A DNA stretch of 35,762 bases. Source: Desulfurellales bacterium (GTDB taxonomy: Bacteria > Campylobacterota_A > Desulfurellia > Desulfurellales > Hippeaceae). Under the pieces are notes generated by a model that saw nothing but the letters and a program-made list of their open reading frames with translations, had not been told where the DNA came from and did not search any database. Made by a program: the position numbers and the translations under genes. The number at the start of each line of letters is the position of its first letter. Position 1 is the stretch's first letter. Location: positions 1 through 35,762 of the forward strand of contig JALWEJ010000054.1 in NCBI GenBank assembly GCA_027014115.1, given 5' to 3'. Positions 1,941-34,208 of this stretch are shown one piece after another.

Positions 1941-2417
1941 CTATTTATACAGTCTGACAATAGATTCTGCAGTACAAGCAGGCTTTTTGTCGTTTTTTAT
2001 CTCAACTGTGATTTTGTAGATTATTTCAACGCAGTCTGTGAGTTTTCTTACGGATATCGGGGTTGTTTTTGCTCTTATTTGTGAATTTACCTTGACGGGA
2101 GCAGGAAATCGTACTCTGTTTAGTCCGTAATTTATGCGTAGCCTCATGCTGGGGTAGTTCTTTTGAAAATAGTCGGGGTGGTTGGATTCTGTTAAAAACG
2201 GTATCATGGAAAGGGTCAAAAAGCCGTGAGCTATCGTTGTTTTGTAGGGCGATTCTCTTTCTGCTCTTTTTGGATCTACATGAATCCACTGAATATCGCC
2301 TGTAGATTTGGCAAAATTATCGATTCTTTCTTGCGTTATCTCTATCCATCTACCTGTATGTATGGTTGTATTCAGCTTTTTTTCATACATTTGAACCAAT
2401 TTATCATAACTATCCAT
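1941..2417 (-). CDS. MaoC-like (R)-specific enoyl-CoA hydratase
   Basis: This 158-residue hot-dog-fold protein resembles the MaoC/NodN dehydratases that hydrate trans-2-enoyl-CoA to (R)-3-hydroxyacyl-CoA. The family hydratase motif is present as STGDIQWIHVDPKRAERESP (catalytic Asp and His) followed by TIAHGFLTLSMIPFL. I start it at the ATG at 2417 because GGGAGG lies seven bases upstream. A GTG 15 bases further upstream would place that Shine-Dalgarno inside the coding sequence. It heads the waaF-folE2 group. The substrate is unknown; a role in fatty-acid or polyhydroxyalkanoate metabolism is only a family-level suggestion. Confidence 0.85.
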   Translation of the reverse strand: MDSYDKLVQMYEKKLNTTIHTGRWIEITQERIDNFAKSTGDIQWIHVDPKRAERESPYKTTIAHGFLTLSMIPFLTESNHPDYFQKNYPSMRLRINYGLNRVRFPAPVKVNSQIRAKTTPISVRKLTDCVEIIYKITVEIKNDKKPACTAESIVRLYK

Positions 2418-2438
2418 AAAACCTCCCAGCACTTGATT

Positions 2439-2484: not shown

Positions 2485-2513
2485 TTGACACGGCAATTTA
2501 CACAGTGTAAAAA
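2485..2513 (+). promoter_or_regulatory. Promoter for the WecA-like gene, near-leaderless
   Basis: TTGACA (2485-2490), a 17-base spacer and TAAAAA (2508-2513) form a good sigma-70-type promoter. Only nine bases separate the -10 hexamer from the ATG at 2523, so a transcript starting 6-7 bases after the -10 would have only about 2-4 bases of leader and no Shine-Dalgarno. Confidence 0.6.
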
Positions 2514-2522
2514 TAACTCACT

Positions 2523-3188
2523 ATGAGCCCGTTTGTCAGTGTTCCGATATTTGTTTTTTATATGACGATTGTTTTGTGCCTCTTTTTGTCCTATCTGTCA
2601 AAAACAAAGGGTGTTTTTTTAAAAGATGAAAAACAAAAACCGTGTGTATGCGGAGCGGGACTTTTTTTCTCTTTTTTGATTGGTTCCTGCTTGTTTGCAA
2701 ATATTACTGCCGTAAAAATTTTTACTGCAGCCCTACCTCTTTTTGCTGCGGGCTTTCTTGAAGATATAAAATTTAAACTAAACAGTATAGTGAGATATTC
2801 TCTGCCTGTTTTTTCTTTTATGCTTTTGGCTTTTTTTGTAGGGTTTGATTTTAAGCATTTTTCTTTTGTTGAGTTTCATGCCATATTTATCGTTTTGGTA
2901 TCCCTGCTTTTTGCAGTGACTACTGCTTTGGGTTTTAAATTTATTCGCACAAGGGCGGTTTTAAGCAGTTTTTTCCTTGCTGTATTTAGTTTATTTGCGT
3001 TTTTGTTTTACAGATATGGCTGTATCGAACTGTTTGAAAGTGCTCTGATTACTGCTTCTTCTGTTCTTGGTTATTTTACACTCGATGTGCCGTTTCATAA
3101 AACATCTTTTGGAAGAAGCGGTCTCTATCTTGCGGGTTTCTTTTTTGCGGTGATGTGTGTTGAATTATTGAAAAAGGTTAATTTTTAA
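2523..3188 (+). CDS. WecA/MraY-family (GT4 transferase-like) membrane protein, probable pseudoenzyme
   Basis: This 221-residue, almost wholly hydrophobic protein follows the block order of polyprenyl-phosphate N-acetylhexosamine-1-phosphate transferases (WecA/TagO/MraY). Residues 35-46 (DEKQKPCVCGAG) sit where the family has KPHxxPxPxxGG. GFLEDIKFKLNSIVRY near residue 79 matches GFLDDxxxLxxxxR. LGYFTLDVPFHKTSFGRSG near residues 184-202 matches the block LGFLxFNxPPAKIFMGDxGS. The expected catalytic residues are changed: the DD pair is ED, the NxxDGxDG loop is not recognisable, and MGDxGS reads FGRSG. Length is about two-thirds of a normal WecA. It has no visible frameshift, so it looks like an intact but probably catalytically dead relative. 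Adenine deaminase follows after 17 bases. Confidence 0.55.
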   Translation: MSPFVSVPIFVFYMTIVLCLFLSYLSKTKGVFLKDEKQKPCVCGAGLFFSFLIGSCLFANITAVKIFTAALPLFAAGFLEDIKFKLNSIVRYSLPVFSFMLLAFFVGFDFKHFSFVEFHAIFIVLVSLLFAVTTALGFKFIRTRAVLSSFFLAVFSLFAFLFYRYGCIELFESALITASSVLGYFTLDVPFHKTSFGRSGLYLAGFFFAVMCVELLKKVNF

Positions 3189-3205: not shown

Positions 3206-4819
3206 ATGGAGCTTGGAATCAATAATGTTTTGATACCCGATTTTGAGAATCTGACATTTAAAAAAGCAAATGTAGGTATAGATAACGGTCTGGTAAAAAC
3301 AGTATCTGATATGCCAATAGAGGCTGAAAAAATATTGGATGCTGAAGGGCGCTATCTCTCTTTGGGGCTTATTGACTGTCACTGTCATATTGAAAGCTCC
3401 CATCTTCTGCCTGCGAGTTTCGGAAATGAGATAGCCAAAAACGGAACGCTCTTTGCCGTCTGTGACTGTCATGAGATTGCAAATGTAAAGGGGCGTGCTG
3501 GTGTTGAGATGTTTATGGAGGATGCAAAACAGAGTGTGTGTAATCTTAAATTTGCTGTTCCATCATGTGTTCCTGCAACCGATTTTGCAACAAGCGGTGG
3601 CAAAATTGAACCTGAGGATGTGAAATATTTTATGGGATTTGATGATGTTGTTGCTTTGGGTGAGCTTATGAATGCACCGGGTGTTGTAAATGGTGATGAA
3701 AAATTTCTCAAAATGATAGATATAACAAAACAGCATAAAAAAAGAATAAACGGACATGCACCGCATCTTGGAAGCGATATGCTGAAAAAATATGTACAAG
3801 CCGGCGTTGAGGATGACCATGAAAGCGAAACATACGAAGAATTGAAAGAAAAAATAGAACTGGGTCTGCATGTTTTTCTGAGAGAGGGAAGCGCAGAAAA
3901 AACCGATAATGAAGCATACAAAATAATAAATGAATACCCCGACAGGGTGATGTTCTGCACAGATGATAAAACAATAGGCGACATCAGAAGGGAAGGCCAC
4001 ATAAACCACAACCTAAAAAAAGCCGTTTCTCTCGGGGTTGAGCCTATTTTGGCTTTAAAGGCTGCAGCATACAACGGTTTGAAATATTACGGTCTTGATG
4101 AATACAGTGATGTGGCAGTAGGCAAAAAAGCCTATTTTGTTATTTTTGATAAGAACTTTGATGTAAAACATGTTATTGCAAATGGTAAGATTTTTGAATA
4201 CACAAATCCGCAGCACAACATACCCGATAATTTTTTAAATACAATTGCGGTCAACGATACAAAAGATGTGCCGAAGATTAAAAATAAAAATATCTGCATG
4301 GTCGCCAAAAGCGGCAGCCTAATAACTCAAAAGCTTGAGGTTGATAACAATACGCCTGAGTTTGACTTGGAAAACGATATGCTGAAAATGTGTGTTTTTG
4401 AACGATACGGACATGGAAATAAAAGTGCATGCAGGATAAAGGGTTTTGGACTAAAGAAAGGGGCAATAGCATCGTCTCTTGCACATGACTGCCACAATAT
4501 TGTAGCTGTAGGGACATCAGATGAAGCAATAGCAAAAGTGTTGGATGAAATTGTAAAGAATCAAGGCGGAATGGCTTTGTTTGACGGCAGCGATATCTAT
4601 TTTATGCCTTTACGGGTCGGCGGTGTTGTATCGTTTGAGGATGCAGACAGTGTTGCAGATGATGTTGAAAAGTTAAGAAGCAGGGTTTCTTATTTGGGCT
4701 GTGAGCTTGAGGATGCTTTTTCAACACTATCTTTTATGGCGCTTGAGGTTATACCTCACATAAAACTTACAGATAAAGGACTTTTTGATGTCGATAGGTT
4801 CTGTTATGTACAGGATTAA
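3206..4819 (+). CDS. ade: Adenine deaminase
   Basis: This 537-residue cytoplasmic amidohydrolase (COG1001 family) deaminates adenine to hypoxanthine and ammonia for purine salvage. The N-terminal metal site is visible as DCHCHIESSHLLPASF (~residues 51-66). GHAPHLGSDM near residue 182 and FCTDDKTIGDIRREGHINHN near 251 supply further metal ligands and the catalytic aspartate. The C-terminal ade-specific domain has YGHGNKSACRIKGFGLKKGA (~400) and SSLAHDCHNIVAVG (~420). I take the ATG at 3206, seven bases after TTGGAG; the GTG at 3200 is almost touching that Shine-Dalgarno. The tail overlaps the next gene by 32 bases. Full length for the family. Confidence 0.93.
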   Translation: MELGINNVLIPDFENLTFKKANVGIDNGLVKTVSDMPIEAEKILDAEGRYLSLGLIDCHCHIESSHLLPASFGNEIAKNGTLFAVCDCHEIANVKGRAGVEMFMEDAKQSVCNLKFAVPSCVPATDFATSGGKIEPEDVKYFMGFDDVVALGELMNAPGVVNGDEKFLKMIDITKQHKKRINGHAPHLGSDMLKKYVQAGVEDDHESETYEELKEKIELGLHVFLREGSAEKTDNEAYKIINEYPDRVMFCTDDKTIGDIRREGHINHNLKKAVSLGVEPILALKAAAYNGLKYYGLDEYSDVAVGKKAYFVIFDKNFDVKHVIANGKIFEYTNPQHNIPDNFLNTIAVNDTKDVPKIKNKNICMVAKSGSLITQKLEVDNNTPEFDLENDMLKMCVFERYGHGNKSACRIKGFGLKKGAIASSLAHDCHNIVAVGTSDEAIAKVLDEIVKNQGGMALFDGSDIYFMPLRVGGVVSFEDADSVADDVEKLRSRVSYLGCELEDAFSTLSFMALEVIPHIKLTDKGLFDVDRFCYVQD

Positions 4820-13292: not shown

Positions 13293-13313
13293 TTACAAAA
13301 AAGGGAGTTGATT

Positions 13314-14426
13314 ATGATTATTGGTGTACCAAAAGAAATTAAACCAAATGAAAACAGAGTTGGTTTAATACCTGCATCTGTTCATGAATTTATAAAAAAT
13401 GGTCATGAGGTTGTTGTTGAAAATAATGCGGGCGTTGGAAGTGGAATAGAGAATAAAGAATATGAAAAAGAGGGAGCGAAAATAATCGAAACAGCAAAGG
13501 ATGTTTTTGATAATGCGGATATGATAGTAAAGGTTAAGGAGCCACAAGCCCAAGAGATAGAGATGTTGAAAAATGGCCAAATACTTTACACCTATCTACA
13601 TCTTGCACCTGACGAAAAACAGACAAAAGGACTTATTAAACAAGGTGTTGTAGCAATTGCTTATGAGACTATAGAGGTTGATGGCAAGCTCCCACTACTT
13701 GAGCCCATGAGTGAGGTTGCAGGAAAGATGTCCTCCATTATGGCAGCCTACCATCTTGCCAAGCCCTACGGTGGAAAGGGTGTTCTATCCGGTGGTGTAA
13801 CAGGTGTGCATAGTGCAAAATTTGTTATTTTGGGTGGTGGAACAGCAGGGTTAAATGCTGCCAAAGTTGCAAGCGGCATGGGTGCAAGCGTTTTTATTTT
13901 TGATATAAATATTGAAAGGTTGAGATATCTTGAGGATGTTTTACCGAAAAACTGCCAAATGATTATGTCAAACAGGGTTAATGTAGAGCAAGAAATACAG
14001 GATGCCGATGCCGTTATTGGAACTGTGCTTATACCCGGAGCAAGAGCTCCGCATCTAATCACAAAAGATATGCTCAAATTAATGAAAAAAGGTACTGTAT
14101 TGGTTGATGTATCCATTGATCAGGGCGGATGTTTTGAAACATCGTATCCGACAACCCATAAAGATCCGGTCTTTGAGGTTGACGGTATTTTACACTACTG
14201 CGTTGCAAATATGCCGGGAGCCTATGCCAGAACTTCAACATATGCTTTGAATAATGCAACACTGCCTTTTGGTCTTAAGATAGCAAATCTTGGCTGGAGG
14301 GAAGCTGCAAAGCAGTATGAGTGTATAGCAAAAGGTGTTAATGTTTTTGACGGCAAAATAACATGCAAACCTGTTGCTGAAGCTCACGGTATTGAATATA
14401 CGCCGATAGAAGAGTTCTTGAAATAG
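13314..14426 (+). CDS. ald: Alanine dehydrogenase
   Basis: A 370-residue NAD-dependent enzyme that interconverts L-alanine with pyruvate, ammonia and NADH; it normally forms cytoplasmic hexamers. The start IIGVPKEIKPNENRVGLIP is diagnostic. Catalytic Lys75 (IVKVKEP) and His96 (TYLHLAPDE) are both present at the positions known from characterised enzymes. The nucleotide-binding glycine motif is VILGGGTAGLNAAKVASGMG (~residues 170-189). Near the end MPGAYARTSTYALNNATLP is typical. I start at the ATG at 13314 because GGGAG lies six bases before it; the TTG at 13308 is not needed. Full length. It sits in an operon with the V4R-like gene and miaA. Confidence 0.95.
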   Translation: MIIGVPKEIKPNENRVGLIPASVHEFIKNGHEVVVENNAGVGSGIENKEYEKEGAKIIETAKDVFDNADMIVKVKEPQAQEIEMLKNGQILYTYLHLAPDEKQTKGLIKQGVVAIAYETIEVDGKLPLLEPMSEVAGKMSSIMAAYHLAKPYGGKGVLSGGVTGVHSAKFVILGGGTAGLNAAKVASGMGASVFIFDINIERLRYLEDVLPKNCQMIMSNRVNVEQEIQDADAVIGTVLIPGARAPHLITKDMLKLMKKGTVLVDVSIDQGGCFETSYPTTHKDPVFEVDGILHYCVANMPGAYARTSTYALNNATLPFGLKIANLGWREAAKQYECIAKGVNVFDGKITCKPVAEAHGIEYTPIEEFLK

Positions 14427-14428
14427 CG

Positions 14429-15346
14429 TTGAAGCCCATAATTATTTTGGGACCTACAGCCATAGGAAAAACCGACCTATCAATAAAACTTGCTCAAAAA
14501 ATCAGCGCTGAAATTATATCCTCAGATACCGTTCAGATACACAGATATATGGATATTGGCAGTGCGAAGCCATCCAAAAAAGAGCGTGCTTTAATAAAGC
14601 ATCACCTTATTGATATTAAAAATCCGGATGAAATATTTTCAAGTGGGGAATTTGTAAGAACTGCAAATTCCCTGATTGAGAAGTTAAGTCAAAAAGGGAA
14701 AAATGTCATTATTGTTGGTGGCGGAGGATTCTACATAGATTCACTCGTGTTTGGCATAGATGAGATAGACAGCGTGGATAAAAAGATTAAAGGTTTTTTT
14801 GATGATATATGTGATGAATTTTCACCAGCATATCTCTATGAATTTTTAAAGATTGTAGATTTCAGGTGGGCATCTGCGATAAAGCCTCAGGACTGCCAAA
14901 GAATAAAGCGGGGTTTAAGTGTTTTTGTAGATAAAGGTGTATCTATAAGCAGTTTTTTTTCAAAAACAAAAAAAGCTGATGATAGATTTTTGATTTTTGT
15001 TTTGTATGCAAATAGGGATTTTTTGAATAAAAGGATAGAAAAAAGGGTTAATTTAATGATTGAATCAGGACTTATAGATGAGGTCAAAAGACTTGTGTTA
15101 ATGGGCTATGCAGAAACAAATGCCCTAAAATCTATAGGGTATAAAGAAACAATTCAATATTTGGAAGGAAAGATAAACTTAGAGGAGCTTTCTAAGCTTA
15201 TCAAAAAAAATACAAAACTCTACGCTAAAAGACAGCTTACATTCCTAAGAAGCAGGTTTTCAGATGCTGTCTGGATTGATGTTGAGAAAGAAGATGGGCT
15301 GCAGATTATGCTTGATGCTTGTAAGCCATATCATGCAGCCTCTTAA
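14429..15346 (+). CDS. miaA: tRNA dimethylallyltransferase MiaA
   Basis: A 305-residue cytoplasmic enzyme that transfers a dimethylallyl group from DMAPP to N6 of A37 in tRNAs reading UNN codons. Walker A is GPTAIGKT (residues 8-15). SSDTVQIHRYMDIGSAKP (~33-50) is the catalytic Asp and substrate loop, followed by HHLIDI and GGGGFYIDSLVFG (~97-109). SIGYKETIQYLEGK and YAKRQLTFLRSRF close the protein in the expected order. It starts with TTG two bases after the ald stop and has only a weak RBS, so it probably relies on coupling. The last 41 bases overlap the 3' end of htpX on the other strand. Confidence 0.93.
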   Translation: MKPIIILGPTAIGKTDLSIKLAQKISAEIISSDTVQIHRYMDIGSAKPSKKERALIKHHLIDIKNPDEIFSSGEFVRTANSLIEKLSQKGKNVIIVGGGGFYIDSLVFGIDEIDSVDKKIKGFFDDICDEFSPAYLYEFLKIVDFRWASAIKPQDCQRIKRGLSVFVDKGVSISSFFSKTKKADDRFLIFVLYANRDFLNKRIEKRVNLMIESGLIDEVKRLVLMGYAETNALKSIGYKETIQYLEGKINLEELSKLIKKNTKLYAKRQLTFLRSRFSDAVWIDVEKEDGLQIMLDACKPYHAAS

Positions 15347-23062: not shown

Positions 23063-23095
23063 AGAAAAGCAATATGTTAGAAAGTGGAGTATATG

Positions 23096-23947
23096 ATGAA
23101 GCGTATAGCTGTTTTGTTTTTGGCACTATTTTTATTTGGGTGTGCAGCAAATAATAAAAGCCTTATAAAAAGCCCTAAGTATAAGGAATTTGCAAACAAC
23201 CTTGAGCTTATCAACTCAAATATTGAACAAGGAAAATATAAAAAAGCCATTGAGATTATTGATTTTTTAATTGGAGCAGGTCTTAAAGATGTGAGACTCT
23301 TTTATAATCGTGGTATATGTCTGAGCAATACCGGATTGTACAGTAAGGCTGTAGATGATTTTAAATATGTTATTAAAAATGCCGAGAATAAACAACTAAA
23401 AGCCAAAGCATATACTGCGATAGGTTACTGCAAATACAAGCTTGACGATGAAGATGCTGCTGTTTTGAATTTTCAAAAGGCCATTCAGATAGACAAAGAT
23501 TATCTTGCTTTTTACAGCCTTGGGTATCTTTATATGAACAAACAAGAATACATAAAGGCAAAAATAAGATTTTATCGTTCGATAGAAGAGAATCCTCAAT
23601 TTGTTCCTGCTTATATAAATCTTGGCAAATGCTACATAAAGCTTGGGGAGTTTGAGAGGGCAAAAGACACCCTTTTGGCCGCAGCGAACTTTGACAACAG
23701 CAACCCTGAAGTGTTTTATGATTTGGGGTATGTATACGACACATTAAACGACTACAATATGAGTATTCTATATTATACAAAAGCTTTGGATTTGACCCCT
23801 ATGTTTGCACCCGCCTACATAAACAGAGGGCTTGTGTATCTGTATATAAACAAGAAAGACAAAGCCTGCAGAGATTTCAAGCAGGCCTGCAATTTGTCTT
23901 TTTGTGACAAGTATAAGAACTTAAAACAAATTGGCATATGTCAATAG
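23096..23947 (+). CDS. TPR lipoprotein heading the T2SS operon (candidate pilotin)
   Basis: A 283-residue lipoprotein. MKRIAVLFLALFLFGCAANN has a lipobox LFGC; the residue after the cysteine is Ala, so outer-membrane sorting would be expected by the E. coli rule. The mature part is built of tandem TPR units of about 34 residues: VRLFYNRGICLSNTGLYSKA, AKAYTAIGYCKYKLDDEDAA, AFYSLGYLYMNKQEYIKAKI, VPAYINLGKCYIKLGEFERA, EVFYDLGYVYDTLNDYNMSI, PAYINRGLVYLYINKKDKAC. GTGGAG six bases upstream favours the ATG at 23096. It overlaps gspC by 10 bases. PilF/PilW TPR lipoproteins pilot type IV pilus secretins, so a pilotin role for GspD is a reasonable inference. Confidence 0.8.
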   Translation: MKRIAVLFLALFLFGCAANNKSLIKSPKYKEFANNLELINSNIEQGKYKKAIEIIDFLIGAGLKDVRLFYNRGICLSNTGLYSKAVDDFKYVIKNAENKQLKAKAYTAIGYCKYKLDDEDAAVLNFQKAIQIDKDYLAFYSLGYLYMNKQEYIKAKIRFYRSIEENPQFVPAYINLGKCYIKLGEFERAKDTLLAAANFDNSNPEVFYDLGYVYDTLNDYNMSILYYTKALDLTPMFAPAYINRGLVYLYINKKDKACRDFKQACNLSFCDKYKNLKQIGICQ

Positions 23948-24858
23948 CAATAAATGGTATTGTAGATTTTTTTAAAAACAAAAGATGGATTTTTGATATA
24001 ATTGTTATATCTATCTGTGTATATTTTTTGGCATTGACTTTTGTTTTAATAATCAGCAGCAAGATTCCTTCTTTTGAAGCAAGAAAGGACAGCATAAAGC
24101 AAAAAATTATTAAAAAAAATACACAAAAACCACAAAAGGCTTTGTTTTTTTCTTATTTTTCACCAATAATACAGAGGGATTTGTTTAATTCGAAAGTGAT
24201 AAGAACGGTCCAAAAAAAGCCAAAAGCTGTTATTGTTGAAAATATACCCGTATCTCAAAGACTGGGCTTAAAGCTTGTGGGCACCATAGTTGGAGACCCG
24301 ACAAATCTAAGCAGAGCGATAGTCTATAGCTCGAAAAACGGAAAGTATGTCCTCTGGAAAATAAACGAAAAACTAAACGGTGCAACGCTTGAGAGGGTTT
24401 TGAGAGACCAGGTAATTGTTGATGTTAACGGCAAAAAAGAGCGCCTTGTAACAAAGGCAGAACCACACTCAAAAGAGTTTCAAAAAAGACTGAGTATAAC
24501 AAATACGCACGGAGAAAGCATTGTAAAATCAAAAAGCGGTGATTCTGTTTATACACTATCAAGGGATGAAATAAATAAGGCTTTTAATGATTTGCCGTCT
24601 TTGTTGTCTGGCGCAACAGCTGTTCCCTACAGAAGAAACGGCATTTCAGGTTTTATCTTAAGAGATGTTAGGCCAAACAGCATTTATTCAAAAGTGGGAC
24701 TGAAAAGAGGCGATGTTATAGTTAGTGTTAACGGCCATGCTTTGAGAAATACTTCACAGCTTATGCAGCTTTATAATGATATAAGGAATCAGTCGGAAGT
24801 AAAAATGAATATAGTCAGACATAATCAAAAAAAGGTTCTTACTTACTATTTAGAATGA
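23938..24858 (+). CDS. gspC: T2SS inner-membrane coupling protein GspC
   Basis: A 306-residue bitopic inner-membrane protein that links the inner-membrane platform to the GspD secretin. A short cytoplasmic start is followed by a TM segment (about residues 18-40). The periplasmic homology region begins around FFSYFSPIIQRDLFNSK (~67) and includes RLGLKLVGTIVGDPTNLSRA (~105). A C-terminal PDZ domain has SGFILRDVRPNSIYSKVGL and KRGDVIVSVNGHALRN (~238-275). This matches the PDZ form of GspC rather than the coiled-coil PulC variant. It starts within the end of the TPR lipoprotein gene and precedes gspD by 12 bases. Confidence 0.9.
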   Translation: MSIAINGIVDFFKNKRWIFDIIVISICVYFLALTFVLIISSKIPSFEARKDSIKQKIIKKNTQKPQKALFFSYFSPIIQRDLFNSKVIRTVQKKPKAVIVENIPVSQRLGLKLVGTIVGDPTNLSRAIVYSSKNGKYVLWKINEKLNGATLERVLRDQVIVDVNGKKERLVTKAEPHSKEFQKRLSITNTHGESIVKSKSGDSVYTLSRDEINKAFNDLPSLLSGATAVPYRRNGISGFILRDVRPNSIYSKVGLKRGDVIVSVNGHALRNTSQLMQLYNDIRNQSEVKMNIVRHNQKKVLTYYLE

Positions 24859-24870
24859 TGGAGATGTATT

Positions 24871-26928
24871 ATGAAAAGTATTTATAAAGTATCCGCAGGA
24901 GTTTTTTTTCTGTTGATTGTTTTTTTGTTTAACTCTTATGCTGTAGACAACAAAACTGCCAATATTAAGCAGTCTAAAAAAAATGTTCAAACAAAAGTGT
25001 CTCAGGAAAAAAAGGTGCTCAAATTTAAAACGGTAAATAAACATGAGCCTACAATAGCCATAGATTTTAACGATGTGGATTTGAGAACATTTATAAAATT
25101 TATGAGTGAGATGACCGGTAAAAATTTTATAGTAAGCAGCAGTGTCAGACCAAAAAAAATCACAATTATTTCACCGAAACCTGTTAGTCTTGACGAAGCA
25201 TATAAGGTTTTTGAGTCCACGCTTGAAGCATACGGATATACGCTTATTCCTGTTAACCATGTTATAAAAATAGTGCCGTCTGTGGAAGCAAAGAGAAAAC
25301 CTTTGTTTGTTTATAAAGGTCACAAAAAAAACAGTGAAGATAAGTTTATGGTTCAGATAATCAAACTAAAATGGGCAAAAGAGGCTGATGTTAGAAGGGC
25401 TGTTGCTTCATTTGTTTCAAGGGAAGGTATGATTACTGGATATGCTCCAACAAACATTATTATAATAGCCGATTTTAAATCAAATATAGATAAGCTGTAC
25501 GATATAATACAAAGCATTGATGTGCCTTCGCAGCAAAACAAGATAAAGGTTATAAAGCTCAATAATGCAAATGCAGAAGATGTCTCAAGGGATCTAAAAA
25601 CAATTTTTTCTGCACTTATAAAAGAAAAAATAAAAGAGGGTAAACATGTAACATTTGTTGTTGTCCCGTATAAAAGGCTGAATTCCATAATGATTTTAAC
25701 CAACAATGAGCTTTTAAACAAAGTGGAGGGGATTATATCAAAAATAGACCAACCTATTAGCTCTGATAAGGGCAACATACATGTTGTAAAACTAAACAAT
25801 GCAAATGCCGCTGAACTTGCGGGCGTTTTGGATAAGCTTGTCGGTGCGAAGATTTCCACGGTTAAAGGAAAAACGGGCAAAGCTATAATATCCAAAGAGA
25901 CAAAAATTGTTGCCGATAAATCTACAAATTCACTTATTATAACTGCATCCAAACAAGAGTTTGATAAGATTGAAAGCATTATAAAAAAATTGGATGTGCC
26001 GAGAAAAGAGGTGTTTGTAGAGGCTGTTATAATGGAGGTGAGCAACGACAATACTCTGAACTTTGGCATAAATTGGCAGGGCGGTGGAAGCCCCGGCAGC
26101 GGAAGCAGTAAAAGCGTTATGTTTGGTGCTGCAAACGGAGTTGTCGGAAGCACATTTGCAGAGATTAAAAAGAGACTACTTTTGTCTAGTTCTGGTTTGG
26201 CTTTTGGGGTTTTGGCATTTCCTTTTACCTACGATGCAAATGGAAACGGCATTATAGACCCAAGTGAACATTATTTTAGTCTTGGCTCTTTTATAGATGC
26301 TGCAAAGAACAGCAACAGTGTAAATATAGTCTCAACACCCCAATTAACTGTTATGGAGAATGAAGAGGCAAGTGTTGTTGTTGCTGAAAACAGACCTTTC
26401 CAGACAAAAGTTGAGATTGGTGATAAAAACGATTATGCAAACTATGAATACAAAAACATAGGTGTTACGCTTAAAATAACACCCCAAATCAATGAAGACG
26501 GATATGTAAAACTCAAACTCTACCAAGAAGTCAGTAGGGTTGACGAAACAACAGTGGGTAATACCATATATGCGCTAAGGCCTATCACAAAACAGAGAAC
26601 AGTCGAAACAACCGTTAGCGTAAAAGACGGAGATACAGCTGTTATTGCAGGATTGATAGAGGATAAAACAGCTCAGCACAACAGTAAGGTGCCTGTGCTC
26701 GGCGATATCCCTGTTGCTGGTAATCTGTTTAAAAATAGAAGAAAAGTCTCGAGCAAAAAGAATCTTATTATTTTTGTGACGCCTCATATAATTAAAACAG
26801 CCGAAGATATGAGAAAGCTGTACTTTAAAAAAGCCAAATATATGTATAGGTTGAAATATGATATAAAGGGTAATGCAGAGCCTGTGGGTAAGGGATTGTA
26901 CATACCCCCTGCTGAATTTTTTAATTAG
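24871..26928 (+). CDS. gspD: T2SS secretin GspD
   Basis: A 685-residue outer-membrane secretin that forms the exit channel. Signal peptide at residues 1-24 (MKSIYKVSAGVFFLLIVFLF then NSYA). N0 lies around 60-137 (IAIDFNDVDLRTFIKFMSEM). N1, N2 and N3 occupy roughly 150-380, each with an IKLNNANA- or KLKWAKE-type start. The secretin barrel begins near VEAVIMEVS and ends VPVLGDIPVAGNLFKNRRKV, SSKKNLIIFVTPHIIKTAED. A Gly/Ser-rich stretch (GGGSPGSGSSKS) is in the usual cap/gate-adjacent position. About 45 residues follow the barrel and could be a pilotin-binding tail. GGAG seven bases upstream fixes the ATG. Length is typical. Confidence 0.95.
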   Translation: MKSIYKVSAGVFFLLIVFLFNSYAVDNKTANIKQSKKNVQTKVSQEKKVLKFKTVNKHEPTIAIDFNDVDLRTFIKFMSEMTGKNFIVSSSVRPKKITIISPKPVSLDEAYKVFESTLEAYGYTLIPVNHVIKIVPSVEAKRKPLFVYKGHKKNSEDKFMVQIIKLKWAKEADVRRAVASFVSREGMITGYAPTNIIIIADFKSNIDKLYDIIQSIDVPSQQNKIKVIKLNNANAEDVSRDLKTIFSALIKEKIKEGKHVTFVVVPYKRLNSIMILTNNELLNKVEGIISKIDQPISSDKGNIHVVKLNNANAAELAGVLDKLVGAKISTVKGKTGKAIISKETKIVADKSTNSLIITASKQEFDKIESIIKKLDVPRKEVFVEAVIMEVSNDNTLNFGINWQGGGSPGSGSSKSVMFGAANGVVGSTFAEIKKRLLLSSSGLAFGVLAFPFTYDANGNGIIDPSEHYFSLGSFIDAAKNSNSVNIVSTPQLTVMENEEASVVVAENRPFQTKVEIGDKNDYANYEYKNIGVTLKITPQINEDGYVKLKLYQEVSRVDETTVGNTIYALRPITKQRTVETTVSVKDGDTAVIAGLIEDKTAQHNSKVPVLGDIPVAGNLFKNRRKVSSKKNLIIFVTPHIIKTAEDMRKLYFKKAKYMYRLKYDIKGNAEPVGKGLYIPPAEFFN

Positions 26929-26939
26929 ATTGGCATTTG

Positions 26940-28619
26940 ATGGATATATTAACTATTTTGATAAATGACGGAATTATAGATAAAGTTGATATAAAAGCGG
27001 AATGTTTGGATAAAGAGTGTTCGTGGGAAGATATAAAAGCCCTAATGCGCAAAAAAAATATAAGCGAAAACAAGCTTTTAAAAACTGTTTCTAAATATAC
27101 AGGCTTTGAGTTTTACGAATCAATTTTAACAGAAGAAATTGATGTTGAACTTCTAAAAGACATATCCATTCATTATTTAAAAAAACACAAGGTTTTTCCC
27201 TTTGGTAAAAACGGTGAAATTAAGGTTGCAGTTAATGACCCATCGGTTGTTGAGCCTCTTGATGATTTGAGTATTATTTTTAAATGTGATGTTGTACCTG
27301 TTCTTGTGCCTGAAAACGAAATCAATGCTGCCATAAACAGGGCATATGGAGAGGTTCAGGAGGATACAGATGCAATAATACAGACCATAGAGGATGATAG
27401 CCAATACTCTCTTGATGAGATAGATGAGTCTGCTGACATATTATACGATACATCCGATGCGCCTGTGATAAAACTTGTAAACAGTATTTTAACTCAAGCT
27501 GTAAAGAGCAAAGCGAGTGATATACATATAGAGCCTTATTTGAAAGATGTTATAGTCAGATACAGAATAGACGGCATTTTATATCAGAAACTGACGCTCT
27601 CAAAGAGGCTACACTCTGCCATTGTTTCTAGAATTAAGATTATGTCCGAGCTTAACATAGCAGAAAAACGTGTGCCTCAAGATGGACGTATTGAGGTAAA
27701 AATTGGTGATAGAGATATAGATTTAAGGGTTTCAACAATCCCTACAGCCTTTGGCGAGCGTGTTGTGTTGAGACTGCTTGAAAAAGGTGGAAGGCTTTTA
27801 ACTCTTGAGGATATTATAAAAAACAACGAGCTGCTGACAGAGATAAAACAGCTCATAAAGATATCTCACGGCATGGTTTTGGTAACAGGTCCTACGGGTT
27901 CAGGCAAAACAACAACTCTGTATGCCGCTTTAAATGAAATTAATACACCCGATAAAAATATACTCACAATAGAAGATCCGATAGAATATCAATTGAACGG
28001 CATAGGTCAGATGCAGGTAAATACTAAAACCGGATTTACATTTGCAAACGGTTTGAGGGCTATGGTTAGACAAGATCCCGATGTTATTCTTGTCGGTGAA
28101 ATAAGAGATAGGGAGACAGCCGAAATTGCTATCCAGGCAGCTCTGACGGGGCATCTTGTTTTTTCTACACTACACACAAACGATGCGCCAAGCGCCATTA
28201 CCAGACTAGTCGATATGGGCATTGAACCTTTTTTGGTATCTTCTTCTGTTAGAGCCATTTTTGCGCAGCGGTTGATAAGACTGTTGTGCAGCAACTGTAA
28301 AGAACCGTATGCACCAAGCGGTGCTGATATAGAAAAAATGGGATTGGGTAGAGACTATTTTGCGAATAAAGTGATATATAAATCTATAGGCTGCAGTCAG
28401 TGTATATATACAGGTTTTAAAGGCAGAGCCGCCATATTTGAATTTATGAAAATGACAGACGGTATCCAATCGTTGATTTTGAAAACCTCAGATTCCAATG
28501 CAATCAAAAAACTTGCCGTATCTCAAGGCATGAAAACTCTGAAAGAATACGGTATGGAAAACTTTGTAGCAAACGGCCTCTCTTCTCTTGATGAGGTTTT
28601 AAGGGTAACAGAGGTTTGA
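26940..28619 (+). CDS. gspE: T2SS assembly ATPase GspE
   Basis: A 559-residue cytoplasmic hexameric ATPase that drives pseudopilus assembly. Residues 1-140 are the N-terminal GspL-binding domains (MshEN-like). APVIKLVNSILTQAVKSKAS and DIHIEP open the N2 domain. Walker A GPTGSGKT (about 317-324), Asp box LTIEDPIEYQ, Walker B ILVGEIRD (~383) and His box HLVFSTLHTNDAPSA (~405) are all present. The zinc tetracysteine is CSNC then CSQC (about C450, C453, C485, C488), with a normal spacing. ATG 26940 is preferred to the TTG before it. gspF starts four bases after its stop. Confidence 0.96.
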   Translation: MDILTILINDGIIDKVDIKAECLDKECSWEDIKALMRKKNISENKLLKTVSKYTGFEFYESILTEEIDVELLKDISIHYLKKHKVFPFGKNGEIKVAVNDPSVVEPLDDLSIIFKCDVVPVLVPENEINAAINRAYGEVQEDTDAIIQTIEDDSQYSLDEIDESADILYDTSDAPVIKLVNSILTQAVKSKASDIHIEPYLKDVIVRYRIDGILYQKLTLSKRLHSAIVSRIKIMSELNIAEKRVPQDGRIEVKIGDRDIDLRVSTIPTAFGERVVLRLLEKGGRLLTLEDIIKNNELLTEIKQLIKISHGMVLVTGPTGSGKTTTLYAALNEINTPDKNILTIEDPIEYQLNGIGQMQVNTKTGFTFANGLRAMVRQDPDVILVGEIRDRETAEIAIQAALTGHLVFSTLHTNDAPSAITRLVDMGIEPFLVSSSVRAIFAQRLIRLLCSNCKEPYAPSGADIEKMGLGRDYFANKVIYKSIGCSQCIYTGFKGRAAIFEFMKMTDGIQSLILKTSDSNAIKKLAVSQGMKTLKEYGMENFVANGLSSLDEVLRVTEV

Positions 28620-28623
28620 TTCT

Positions 28624-29847
28624 ATGCCGGTATACGAATATAAAGCCCTAACTCAAAAAGGAAAAACCAAAACAGGCATCATAGACGCCCAAAGCAAAAA
28701 AGAAGCAAAAGAAAAGATTAAGTCAATGGAATTATACCCTGTTGAGGTTGAAATTTCGAGCTCAGAAGATGTAGATGGTGTAAAAAAGGGATTTTCCTTG
28801 CCAACATTTGCTTCGGTTAATAAAACCGAATTTATATACACAATAAGACAGATTGCAACATTGATTTCTGCTGGTGTTACATTGGATGAAACGCTGTCAA
28901 CTGTTGTTCAGCAAACAAGAAATGCTCCGCTTAAGAGGGTTTTGACTCAGATTCTGGGAAGTGTGAGAGAGGGCTCTTCATTGTCTGATGCTCTAAAAAA
29001 ACATCCACGGGTATTTTCAAAAACCTTTTGTGCAATGGTTGTTGCTGGTGAATCATCTGGCACGCTTGAGTTTGTGCTTGAACAGCTTGCCACATTTTTG
29101 GAACAGCAAGAAGAGTACAGAAAAAAAATGAGGTCGGCTTTAGTCTATCCTATCTTTATCCTTGTTGTGGGTATAACCGTTTTATTTTTTCTGTTGAGCT
29201 TTGTTGTACCTAAGGTTGTTTCTCTGTTTTCTGATTTCAATACGGTTTTACCTCTGCCTACAAGAATATTGATTGCAGTAAGCGATTTCAGTAAAAGTTA
29301 TTGGTGGGTTGTTTTGGGATTTGTGATTGTAGGTGCTGCTGGGTTTAAGTTTTGGGTAAAAACCTCCAAGGGTAAAACGATTGTTCATTCGTTTTTGTTG
29401 AATGTGCCTCTTGTTGGAGAGTTAATTATAAAAAATACATTTGCCAAGTTCGCAAATACATTGGGAACACTTCTGAAAAACGGTGTGCCGCTTGTTGACA
29501 GTATAAATATAGTAAGCAACCTTATTTCCAATACAATTATCAAATCGGCCATAGACGATGTAAAAGAGCAGCTTACAGAGGGTGTTTCTTTATCGGATGC
29601 TATGAAAAAATATGATTTTATACCGGGCTCTTTAATTCAGATGATTTCTGCGGGAGAAAAATCCGGAGAAGTCGAGGAACTTTTGTTTAAAATAGGTTAT
29701 AGTTACGAAAGAGAGTTTGACTCAAAGCTGCAGGTTTTGACTTCAATGGTTGAGCCTATGCTTATACTTATTTTGGGCGGTGTTGTGGGTTTTGTTGTGA
29801 TGGCAACACTGCTGCCGATTTTTGAGATGAGTCAACTTGTAAAATAA
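28624..29847 (+). CDS. gspF: T2SS inner-membrane platform protein GspF
   Basis: A 407-residue polytopic protein at the centre of the inner-membrane platform. The N-terminal YEYKALTQKGKTKTGIIDAQ is standard for GspF/PilC. Two repeated cytoplasmic domains, RQIATLISAGVTLDETLSTV (~75) and FANTLGTLLKNGVPLVDSIN (~277), each end in a segment of the SGxLxxxL type (SSGTLEFVLEQLATFLEQQE and AGEKSGEVEELLFKIGYSYE). TM segments lie near residues 172-195, 221-243 and 376-399. Full length. It is followed after 18 bases by gspG, whose RBS is the strongest in the operon. Confidence 0.95.
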   Translation: MPVYEYKALTQKGKTKTGIIDAQSKKEAKEKIKSMELYPVEVEISSSEDVDGVKKGFSLPTFASVNKTEFIYTIRQIATLISAGVTLDETLSTVVQQTRNAPLKRVLTQILGSVREGSSLSDALKKHPRVFSKTFCAMVVAGESSGTLEFVLEQLATFLEQQEEYRKKMRSALVYPIFILVVGITVLFFLLSFVVPKVVSLFSDFNTVLPLPTRILIAVSDFSKSYWWVVLGFVIVGAAGFKFWVKTSKGKTIVHSFLLNVPLVGELIIKNTFAKFANTLGTLLKNGVPLVDSINIVSNLISNTIIKSAIDDVKEQLTEGVSLSDAMKKYDFIPGSLIQMISAGEKSGEVEELLFKIGYSYEREFDSKLQVLTSMVEPMLILILGGVVGFVVMATLLPIFEMSQLVK

Positions 29848-29865
29848 TAGTTTTTAGGGGGATTT

Positions 29866-30288
29866 ATGAAAAACAGAGGATTTACGCTCATTGAACTTAT
29901 GATAGTTATAGTTATTTTGGGTATCTTGGCTGGTATTGTTGTTCCAAGGCTTATGAGTGAACCCGATAAAGCAAGGGTGGTAAAGGCAAAGATGCAGATT
30001 CAAAACCTATCTGTTGCCGTTAAAAAGTTCAAGATGGACAACGGGTTTTATCCGACAACAGAACAGGGATTGGATGCGCTTGTAACAAAACCGTCTATAG
30101 GAAAAATACCAAGCCATTATCCACCGCACGGCTATATATCAAAGGTTCCAAAAGATCCGTGGGGCAATCCTTATATTTACATATCGCCAGGTGAACATGC
30201 AGATTTCGAAATTATTTCATTAGGAGCAGACGGAAAGGAAGGTGGAGAAGGCTACGACAAAGATATAAAGAGCTATGAGTTGGAATAA
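29866..30288 (+). CDS. gspG: T2SS major pseudopilin GspG
   Basis: A 140-residue major pseudopilin. The prepilin leader is MKNRG and cleavage before Phe gives [20 protein letters not shown] with Glu at +5. The globular part has [15 protein letters not shown], a [18 protein letters not shown] block and [17 protein letters not shown], the conserved calcium-binding loop. AGGGGG four bases before the ATG is the strongest Shine-Dalgarno in the operon, consistent with the need for more copies of this subunit. It overlaps gspH by 14 bases. A prepilin peptidase (GspO) must process it, but no gene for that enzyme is in the window. Confidence 0.97.
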
Positions 30289-30751
30289 AAAAGATAATAT
30301 CCTCGGTTTTACGCTTATAGAGGTTGTCATAGTTTTATTTATCATTTCTGTTTTTGTAAGTTTTGGTATGCCGAAGTTTATGGATATGCTTTTTGAGTCG
30401 GATATATCACAAACGGTTAGAAAAATTGCCATGATTGTAAAACAGGAGAGGCTAAATTCTATAACGGAAAAACAGGAATCTGTGGTAATTTTTGACAAAA
30501 AAGCAAATGTTGTAAAATACTCAAATATATCAAACAAACAAGACAAACTGAAAATTATGAAACTTGACAATATTAAATTTACTTGTTCTTCACTCGAAGA
30601 AAGTGATAAAGACTCAGACATATGTAAAATAAATATATCACAAAACGGTTTGGCAACGCCTTGCCGAATAACTTTTTTTGGAAAAGGCAAAAGCTACACA
30701 ATAACAATCAAGCCGTTTATTATAAATATGGACATAACAGAAAGTGGATAA
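30275..30751 (+). CDS. gspH: T2SS minor pseudopilin GspH
   Basis: A 158-residue protein with a type IV prepilin-like N-terminus: leader [11 protein letters not shown], then [20 protein letters not shown] with Glu at +5. The rest is a soluble pilin-type domain with little sequence conservation, containing [20 protein letters not shown], which resembles the conserved helix and first strand of GspH/FimT. It starts inside the end of gspG and ends inside the start of gspI. The letter H is assigned by position between G and I and by the FimT-like pattern. Confidence 0.85.
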
Positions 30752-31103
30752 ACAAGGTTTTAGCCTTATTGAAATTCTGGTTGCGGTTGTTGTTATAGGC
30801 ATAGGTTTTGGTATTATACTTTTGACGACATCAAATGTTGAACAGTCGGCAATAAACAACAGTCGCGACATAAAAGGTTATTTTTTGGCTGATAATACAC
30901 TTAATCGGTATATTCTTGAAAAGGCATACGGAATCAATCTCAATAACACAGATGATGAAGAGAGCGGTTTTGATTTTGAGCAAGACAAAAATGATACATT
31001 TTATGACAAACTTGCCCTGTACTCCGTAAGTTTCAAAAAAGAATCTTTTTCAGGCGACGATTTTGAAATAACTGTTAAAAGATATGCCATCTCTAATGAA
31101 TAA
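30744..31103 (+). CDS. gspI: T2SS minor pseudopilin GspI
   Basis: A 119-residue pseudopilin starting with GTG inside the end of gspH. The leader MDKQG is very short, and the mature start FSLIEILVAVVVIGIGFGII has Glu at +5 and the small residues common in GspI. SNVEQSAINNSRDIKGYFLA and DNTLNRYILEKAYG match the GspI pattern of an Asn/Ala-rich helix before a small beta domain. GspI normally forms the tip core with J and K. It overlaps gspJ by eight bases. Confidence 0.85.
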   Translation: MDKQGFSLIEILVAVVVIGIGFGIILLTTSNVEQSAINNSRDIKGYFLADNTLNRYILEKAYGINLNNTDDEESGFDFEQDKNDTFYDKLALYSVSFKKESFSGDDFEITVKRYAISNE

Positions 31104-31776
31104 TAAAGCCTTTACTCTTATAGAACTGCTTGTTTCTGTAACTATAACGGCTGTTATTGTCGGTATTGTGTATGCTACATTTTTTAATGTTATGGATGTT
31201 TCAGAAAAGCTCAATAATTCGGGGGATTTGAATTATCAGGCCGTTATGTTTTTTGGTTTGATGGAGAAGGATTTGGATTCTTTGTATGCAGAACAGTTTG
31301 CAAAAAACACAAAAAACAAGAAAAAGAACGATTCAAAAAAAAGCAATCAGCCCTATTTTGTTATAAGAAGTATAGATTTGGAAAATCTGGATGAAGAAAA
31401 TCCGTTTTTAGAATTTTTTTCAACCTTTTCTTTAAACCCCAATGGCCATCCGCAGTTTATCATTAACAAAATATCCTACTTTATCAAAAAACAAAACACA
31501 AAAGATAAAAATATTCAAAGATTTTCAATAATAAGAAAAGAGCTCCCCTTTTCTGATATAAAATCAAAATTTAATGCTCTTGGCGTTGAAGTTGCCTGCA
31601 GTGTTGTAAAGATTAAAATAAAAGTTATTGATAAAGATTCCAATGAACAAGATGAATACGATTCAAGAAAGAATAAAAACAGATATCCTATTGCTTTGGA
31701 TTTTTCTCTTGAATTTAGTGGAAAATCAAAAAAACAGAGTTTTGAAAAACTGTTTATAATAGGTGTAAATAAGTAG
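31096..31776 (+). CDS. gspJ: T2SS minor pseudopilin GspJ
   Basis: A 226-residue pseudopilin (230 if the in-frame ATG at 31084 is used). The hydrophobic start FTLIELLVSVTITAVIVGIV has Glu at +5, and YATFFNVMDVSEKLNNSGDL follows as in GspJ. The residue before the cleavage site is Ala (MNNKA) where prepilin peptidases normally require Gly; this is unusual. The start lies in the end of gspI. A basic, Lys/Asn-rich insert (AKNTKNKKKNDSKKSN) lies near residues 70-85. The rest is a beta-rich domain. Its role is tip complex formation with GspI and GspK. Confidence 0.85.
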   Translation: MNNKAFTLIELLVSVTITAVIVGIVYATFFNVMDVSEKLNNSGDLNYQAVMFFGLMEKDLDSLYAEQFAKNTKNKKKNDSKKSNQPYFVIRSIDLENLDEENPFLEFFSTFSLNPNGHPQFIINKISYFIKKQNTKDKNIQRFSIIRKELPFSDIKSKFNALGVEVACSVVKIKIKVIDKDSNEQDEYDSRKNKNRYPIALDFSLEFSGKSKKQSFEKLFIIGVNK

Positions 31777-31783
31777 GCTGCTT

Positions 31784-32806
31784 ATGATAAAAACAGATAA
31801 AAACGGCGTTGTGCTCATACTTGTTCTGTTTCTTATAGCCATCTTAAGTGTTGTTGATGTTGAAATGCTGAAGGTGTCAAATATGGAAAATTCCATCTCG
31901 TCAATTGAGAAAGGCTATATTTTTTCATATAACGCCATAAAGAATTCTGAAGCCTTTGAAAAAGCGCTGTTGATAAAGGATGCAAGAGAAAATAAATACG
32001 ATTCTTTTTTTGATATTTGGTCTTTTGGTGAGAATGTGCATACATTGAACGGCTACGATAGAGAGCTGTTTGAAGGTGTAGATATTGATGTTGAGGATGA
32101 GTGTTCAAAATTTCCTATAAATTATATTTCAGACAACAAAACCGGACAAACATACAGGGATATACTTTTTAGGCTTTTGGTTAATAAACCCTTTAAACTT
32201 AAAGAAAAAAAGGCTGCCGAGATTGTTTTGTCTTTGTGGTATTGGATAGATAAAGAGGGTGTTGAAAAAAAATATCTTTCAAAACTGCCTGAGGGTGTGG
32301 ATAATATAGATACAAGCAAATTTTTTGCATCGGCTGTAAAAAATGCCCCCATGGATAATCTCGGTGAGCTTTTTCTAATAAAAACAATCGACAGCAAGCT
32401 GCTTTATCCTACAAAAAAAAGGCCTGGTCTGTTTGATTTGTTAACTACGTACTGTAAAAGCGGAAAGATAAATATAAACACTGCAAACAGATATATTATT
32501 GCTGCAGTTGTGCCTGATAGTGTATCGCAAGATGAGGCAGTTGAGTTTGCCGATTCTGTTATAAAATTTAGAAGCGATGAATTTCACAAAGATTTATTAA
32601 AAAACAGCGACTGGTATCAGACAAAGATGCCGGGTTTTAGTGATATTGTTCTGCCATCAGGCATTATTTCAACAAAAAGTGATGTTTTTCGGATGAAAAT
32701 TTGTTATAAAAATGCAAAACTGTCTGTCTGCGCGGTTGAGATTTTGGAAAGAAAGAAAGAAAAAGGTGGATATAAAATAAAAACTGTGTATAAAGAATTG
32801 TATTAA
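31784..32806 (+). CDS. gspK: T2SS minor pseudopilin GspK
   Basis: A 340-residue pseudopilin, the large tip subunit. Leader MIKTDKNG, then VVLILVLFLIAILSVVDVEM; the position +5 Glu is absent, as is normal for GspK. A large alpha domain is inserted in the pilin fold: YRDILFRLLVNKPFKLKEKK, LSLWYWIDKEGVEKKYL and NAPMDNLGELFLIKTIDSKL, then GKININTANRYIIAAVVPDS, the family's recognisable NINTA block. It begins seven bases after gspJ and is followed by gspL after one base. Full length. Confidence 0.92.
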   Translation: MIKTDKNGVVLILVLFLIAILSVVDVEMLKVSNMENSISSIEKGYIFSYNAIKNSEAFEKALLIKDARENKYDSFFDIWSFGENVHTLNGYDRELFEGVDIDVEDECSKFPINYISDNKTGQTYRDILFRLLVNKPFKLKEKKAAEIVLSLWYWIDKEGVEKKYLSKLPEGVDNIDTSKFFASAVKNAPMDNLGELFLIKTIDSKLLYPTKKRPGLFDLLTTYCKSGKININTANRYIIAAVVPDSVSQDEAVEFADSVIKFRSDEFHKDLLKNSDWYQTKMPGFSDIVLPSGIISTKSDVFRMKICYKNAKLSVCAVEILERKKEKGGYKIKTVYKELY

Positions 32807-32807
32807 T

Positions 32808-34208
32808 ATGAGTATGAAAATTTTATGTATTGGATTTGGTAAGAATTATATAAAATTCGGACAGCTATATGTATCATACAAAAAAAAGGAACTTCTGCAT
32901 CTTTCTGTTTTGCCGATAGGGGATTTTTCTGAAGACAAGACTAAAGAGGCTATTTTATCACATATAGAAACAAACGGTTTGTTTAGTGAGCAGTATGTGG
33001 CTTTGTTTGATTCCAAAGACTGCTTTATACGGCATTTAAATTTTCCTTTTTCCAAAAAAGACAAAATAAAGCAGGTGATTAAAGAAGAAATGGAGCTGGA
33101 TTTACCTGTATCCTTCGATGATATGTCTGTTGATTTTATGGTTGGCGCAAAAACCAAAAAAGATACATATGGTGTTGTAGGATTTGCATACTACAATAAA
33201 GAGATAGAACGCATCCTGTCTGTTTTTGAAGGCTTATCCATTGATTTGGATTTTATTATGCCGGATGTTGCGGCTCTTAAAGGGCTGTCAGATATTTATG
33301 AATCAAACGGAGTAGTTTTTTTGGGAGTCAAAAACGAACACACAAATTATTACCAAAAATGTGCAAACAATGCTGTGTTTTTGCGCTCTATCCATTCTCC
33401 ATCCGATAAGGTATTATCCTCTGTTGTTTCGGCTTATTTTAAGGCTCAAACAATATATGCTGAATGCAGTGCCGATATGGTTGTTTTTGATGCGCCGGAA
33501 GGTGTTGTATCAAAGGATGCTCTGAAAGATATTTTTAATTGTGAGGTCTTGTCGTTTGAGGATTATATAAAACAGTTTGCCGATATGGAGCTGTATGTTG
33601 ACAGCCTTTTATCATATTCCGATATAGTGTCTTCACTTTTGCTTGCATCAAACAGAGGCGATGTTGTTAATTTTCGTCAAGGAAGGTATAAAAAAAGTTC
33701 ACGTATTGACTCTTTTAAAAAACCGGCAATGTATCTTCTTGTTTCTGTAAATTTAATATTTGCATCCTGTCTGTTTTATGAGCATACAAAAGCAGATATT
33801 GCAAATCATAAACTATATGAATATAAACAATCCGTTGAGCTTATCTTAGAACGCAATTTTAAAAATATACCAAAATCATTAACACCTATGCAGTATAAAT
33901 CACTTTTTCTCGGAAAGATAAAGGGTTTGCAGGGAAACAACACAACATACAAACTACCTGAGTATACATTTATAGAATCATTTAACTCAATAAGCAAATC
34001 AATCCCCAAAGATATAAAATTGACAGTCGATAGTGTTTCTTACGACGGACGGGGTATTCTAATAAGTGCAAAAGCTGAATCCTACGGCGTTGTGGATAGG
34101 ATAAAGAGTTCTTTGTCAAAGGTAAAGAATTTCAAGAGTATTGATATAAAAAAGGCAAAAACATTACCATCAGGCGGTGTTTTGTTTGATTTATACATTG
34201 AATTGTAA
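32808..34208 (+). CDS. gspL: T2SS platform protein GspL
   Basis: A 466-residue bitopic inner-membrane protein. The N-terminal 300 residues look like the actin-like cytoplasmic domain of GspL/PilM (SHIETNGLFSEQYVALFDSK; FPFSKKDKIKQVIKEEMELD; LPVSFDDMSVDFMV), which recruits GspE. Just before the membrane, SSLLLASNRGDVVNFRQGRY is the conserved NxRxGxF/Y-like element. A TM segment lies near 309-327 (PAMYLLVSVNLIFASCLFYE), followed by a periplasmic coiled region and a ferredoxin-like domain (~385-466). An alternative ATG two codons downstream exists. No good RBS, so coupling to gspK is likely. Confidence 0.88.
   Translation: MSMKILCIGFGKNYIKFGQLYVSYKKKELLHLSVLPIGDFSEDKTKEAILSHIETNGLFSEQYVALFDSKDCFIRHLNFPFSKKDKIKQVIKEEMELDLPVSFDDMSVDFMVGAKTKKDTYGVVGFAYYNKEIERILSVFEGLSIDLDFIMPDVAALKGLSDIYESNGVVFLGVKNEHTNYYQKCANNAVFLRSIHSPSDKVLSSVVSAYFKAQTIYAECSADMVVFDAPEGVVSKDALKDIFNCEVLSFEDYIKQFADMELYVDSLLSYSDIVSSLLLASNRGDVVNFRQGRYKKSSRIDSFKKPAMYLLVSVNLIFASCLFYEHTKADIANHKLYEYKQSVELILERNFKNIPKSLTPMQYKSLFLGKIKGLQGNNTTYKLPEYTFIESFNSISKSIPKDIKLTVDSVSYDGRGILISAKAESYGVVDRIKSSLSKVKNFKSIDIKKAKTLPSGGVLFDLYIEL

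Follow-up and report, generated by a model that had tools for sequence, protein, structure and literature searches.

WecA-type sugar-phosphate transferases begin the assembly of surface polysaccharides on a lipid carrier. Among soluble enzymes, pseudo-enzymes are a familiar phenomenon, but we know of no described pseudo-transferase of the WecA/MraY superfamily with a non-enzymatic role in the membrane, and a literature search for inactive MraY or WecA homologues found no described case. The family used for comparison here is the WecA/WbpL-type polyprenyl-phosphate N-acetylhexosamine-1-phosphate transferases (PNPT superfamily, PF00953, TIGR02380). MraY (PDB 4J72 and others) is a distant homologue of the full-length relatives introduced below; its chemistry has been assigned to Asp117, Asp118, Asp265 and an HHH loop (PMC4790310, PMC5039524), and Asp265 is the metal-binding Asp of the A. 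aeolicus enzyme (PMC5039524).

The window analyzed here is a stretch of 35,762 nucleotides from a Desulfurellales bacterium (contig JALWEJ010000054.1). The gene of interest lies at 2523..3188 on the forward strand, to which all coordinates below refer unless stated otherwise. It is an uninterrupted open reading frame of 221 codons whose start matches the starts of its homologues (MSPLV.., MPPLL.., MSPFV..). A first-pass annotation made from the sequence alone had called the frame intact and the product WecA/MraY-like, and both descriptions hold. Because Pfam and NCBIfam do not recognize the protein (direct scans returned no transferase family, and there was no PF00953 match at E<=1), its homology rests on intermediates. 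Its closest relatives are full-length WecA-type transferases of 339-349 amino acids (31-40% identity over its length, E down to 4e-28); in whole-genome searches the best of these came from the same bacterial family (G005, G006, G007, G009 and G012) and the same class (G020). As a group, the full-length relatives match PF00953 (down to 6e-31), weakly TIGR02380, and the MraY and DPAGT1 structures. Only six of the 12 members of the set examined (A3) match PF00953, presumably the six full-length proteins. The HMM-HMM comparison that had been proposed as a check gave a strong match between the short and the full-length profiles (hhalign 99.2%, E 3e-19). Reached through these intermediates, shared ancestry of the window protein with the PNPT/GT4 transferases is clear at the level of sequence.

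In its ancestry, its TM1-TM8 layout, its GFLED motif and the position of its LGF..P..K block, the window protein resembles the WecA/WbpL-type enzymes. Eight helices are predicted. TM1 (about residues 4-29, 2532..2609; predicted helix 6-28) is among the stretches nearest to the full-length enzymes, residues 1-30 being 42-52% identical to those of the parent-type (type-A) enzymes. The resemblance ends in the catalytic elements, which were compared in an alignment with nine full-length relatives. The acidic pair is retained as E80-D81 (2760..2765); the corresponding E90 and D91 are invariant in all nine intact relatives, so reading the pair as a degenerate DD, as the first-pass annotation did, is mistaken. 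The cytoplasmic substrate loop, previously thought to be in order, has suffered a deletion of about ten residues at 2607..2654, the invariant P-Q-x-F-H among them (GVFLKDEKQKPCVCGA vs GLFLDKAKEDKPQRFHKDDTPRIGG). The catalytic loop NSINIIDGxNGL now reads LGFKFIRTRAV (2928..2960), and each of the six invariant polar or glycine residues of its NxxDGxxG motif (N149, N152, D155, G156, N158 and G159) is replaced or gapped. At 3108..3122, FGRSG stands where the relatives have LGDGG, with the metal-binding Asp changed to Arg198. We take this Asp to be the equivalent of Asp265 in A. aeolicus MraY. Finally, the protein stops after about TM8 with the end MCVELLKKVNF* (3153..3188), which is common to short homologues, and is without the last ~115 residues of the full-length enzymes, comprising TM9-10 and the HxH loop. 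Unlike MraY, it thus has no counterpart of Asp265 or of the HHH motif. Since two of MraY's catalytic elements are missing, sugar-phosphate transfer by the window protein is very unlikely, judging from the alignment. The first-pass annotation was therefore right about the intact frame, the homology, the unrecognizable NxxDGxDG loop and the FGRSG in place of MGDxGS; its broader statement that all catalytic residues were lost fails on the acidic pair, it misjudged the substrate loop, and it missed the truncation.

Truncated homologues of 192-203 amino acids are present in five other genomes, giving six carriers together with the window genome (G000). In the 25 genomes of the phylum that were searched, the short form was found in one family only, and it was not found in the same-genus relative G001. 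Four of the five other short homologues also occur in MAGs of Hippea, Desulfurellaceae and Desulfurellales. The short homologues of the Hippea-like MAGs (L104-L107 and G010:C1) share the truncation, the losses and the clade of the window protein, and all five are without the same loops. They differ from it in sequence (23-28% identity), in lying in other operons and in having lost the Glu of the E-D pair, with the Asp lost too in G010. Four of them end almost exactly where the window protein ends (...LLIELLKK, LLIDLLKNV or ILIELLKQM); this ELLKK-like tail occurs in five of the six short proteins, that of G010 ending differently, and in none of the full-length enzymes. Further derived traits that the short proteins have in common, and that most or all of the long ones do not have, are the PQxFH deletion, Ser6 and 'PL' instead of 'PV/PI' at 72-73.

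The best explanation, and in our judgment a fairly probable one, is that the window gene is one member of a truncated, non-catalytic WecA-type lineage. In this account, an ancestor in the Hippea-like family duplicated or shortened a full-length polyprenyl-phosphate sugar-1-phosphate transferase, ending it after about TM8; the membrane bundle stayed, while the substrate loop, the metal Asp and the second catalytic loop went. The short form now sits in three different genomic settings. Its product, presumably unable to transfer sugar phosphate, would act as a small membrane protein of several helices in which part of the parent's lipid-facing or dimer-forming bundle survives.

Selection on the short gene could be measured in a four-species group, where dN/dS is about 0.15-0.36 and a codon model with free omega (lnL -1816.1) rejects omega=1 (lnL -1860.9 for the best fit). 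Because pN/pS in four related genomes is 0.26-0.38 for the short gene and 0.07-0.14 for its neighbours, the gene is constrained, but less so than they are. Its frame is intact in all six genomes, with none of the damage in relatives that would have spoken for frame decay. In at least one lineage, purifying selection maintains the short form as a protein. The dN/dS check suggested earlier thus came out in favor of conservation in the four-species group; from its own open frame, the window gene is probably maintained as well.

A less likely reading, though one that carries some weight, is that the copy in the window is decaying: selection would have lapsed for it while persisting in the Hippea-like group, and its frame would simply not be broken yet. 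The absence of the short gene from G001 and the long branch of the window protein in the tree (1.1 changes per column) fit such a history, as do a GC3 of 0.294, the lowest of seven genes compared, and a count of 18 charged residues in the predicted helices that is not significantly below the neutral expectation of 21.6 +/- 3.9, although such counts proved uninformative as a test of selection on the window gene. However, 221 codons have remained free of stops and frameshifts at 62-65% amino-acid divergence from intact relatives. When neutral drift to the divergence of the window gene was simulated, no stop arose in only 0-0.3% of cases, or in about 5-7% if half of the divergence was taken as neutral. 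The window protein has also departed less from the parent sequence than the other short proteins have: it keeps 18 of 53 invariant positions, including the E-D pair and Arg91, compared with 10-14 of 53.

In a mixture-model tree, the six short proteins form one clade (support 99/98), placed beside the type-A enzymes or inside their group. The tree program warned that long branches meet and that an artefact is possible, and the clade is therefore read with some caution. If it were an artefact, several full-length enzymes could have been truncated independently in different genomes. We consider this improbable: the three unrelated genomic locations of the short genes agree with it, as does the occurrence of a full-length copy close to dnaA in G009, where G010 has its short one, but a tree in which the window protein joined five of the six type-A long enzymes (all but that of G007) was rejected (p-AU 0.004), and repeated truncation sits poorly with the clade support, the common C-terminal end and the other shared derived residues. 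Given the clade and the rejection of omega=1, we infer a single origin, which for the short form is the most likely history on these alignments, together with selection in at least one lineage. The earlier description of a conserved inactive relative of polyprenyl-phosphate sugar transferases is borne out to the extent of one truncated clade in six genomes, with strong purifying selection in four. A still active split enzyme with its C-terminal half encoded elsewhere would agree with the retained N-terminal bundle and acidic pair but can practically be dismissed, since no free C-terminal half turned up when the whole genome was searched with a full-length profile, and since the NxxDG loop and the catalytic LGDGG Asp are lost although the protein extends over both sites.

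Under the favored reading of a single truncated lineage, the short protein has probably taken on a non-enzymatic job in the membrane, and a role as scaffold or lipid-carrier binder is possible. That it occupies polyprenyl phosphate, or pairs with the MraY or WecA-type enzyme of its host, is a guess that we regard as doubtful. Slightly less likely still is the complete proposal: a single-origin pseudo-transferase, now a conserved membrane protein without enzymatic function, that pairs with MraY or else controls or buffers the use of polyprenyl phosphate. Regulation of the active enzyme had been suggested by the first-pass annotation. Regulation of its own parent is not favored, because a type-A full-length enzyme was detected in one of the six carriers only (G012), three of the other five genomes being just 81-88% complete. 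Other partners are available, namely MraY and, in two carriers (G000 and G010), a second, type-B WecA-like enzyme. The full-length profile search of the window genome returned only three genes: this one, that of an intact WecA-type enzyme and that of a MraY-type enzyme (G000:C98). MraY-type matches were obtained for the other carriers too, with none for G010 at that threshold, where the enzyme is assumed to be present because it is essential. It would be unusual for selection to maintain a truncated protein of the WecA/MraY membrane superfamily that has lost catalysis. Should the protein bind MraY or the lipid carrier, this would point to an overlooked control step in envelope synthesis; if its role is unrelated, it would illustrate cleanly how an integral membrane enzyme can be turned into a plain membrane protein.

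Structure prediction for the window protein gave an AlphaFold model of low confidence (pLDDT 64.9, pTM 0.56), built on an alignment of five sequences from which the full-length relatives were left out, and a second model was worse. The AlphaFold model had no PDB match at E<=0.001, and structure-based comparison was set aside, the models being of low confidence and the hits being chance matches to helical bundles.

Downstream of the window gene is an adenine deaminase gene (3206..4819; PF13382, 4.5e-51). Its start is probably the ATG at 3206, 17 nt past the stop of the window gene, and the proteins of relatives align from residue 3; the two genes are possibly co-transcribed. Upstream, a MaoC-like dehydratase gene is divergently oriented (1941..2432, reverse strand; PF01575, 3.6e-20). 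Relatives have other genes upstream of adenine deaminase. In four related genomes the order aminotransferase-short gene-ppaC is conserved. In G010, the short homologue (L018:8273-8851) is flanked by dnaA on one side and by cobT-cobS on the other; G012-G015 have no short gene at this place, and there cobS and dnaA face each other directly. Neighbourhood was rejected as a clue to function, since MaoC/adenine deaminase, dnaA/cobT and aminotransferase/ppaC share no partner across the three lineages.

The good promoter that the first-pass annotation credited to the gene corresponds to a promoter-like TTGACA-18-AAAAAT upstream of the ATG (2485..2514; 10/12 matches). The region holds 12 such sites compared with 9.0 +/- 3.1 in shuffles, and this one would place the transcription start nearly on the ATG; for both reasons it is not evidence of function. 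Overlapping it, between the two divergent genes, is a perfect 7-1-7 palindrome, TTTACACAGTGTAAA (2497..2511), which is a possible operator. Deriving a regulon from it was abandoned, as there was no exact second copy in the window genome or 16 relatives; one copy with a single mismatch occurs elsewhere in the genome (G000:C97). Elsewhere in the window, ORF translations show an alanine dehydrogenase-like gene with a miaA-like gene immediately after it (13308-15346), and likewise a type II secretion-like operon (23084-34208) with genes for a TPR protein, a GspC/PDZ-like protein, a GspD secretin, a GspE ATPase, GspF and pseudopilin-like proteins.
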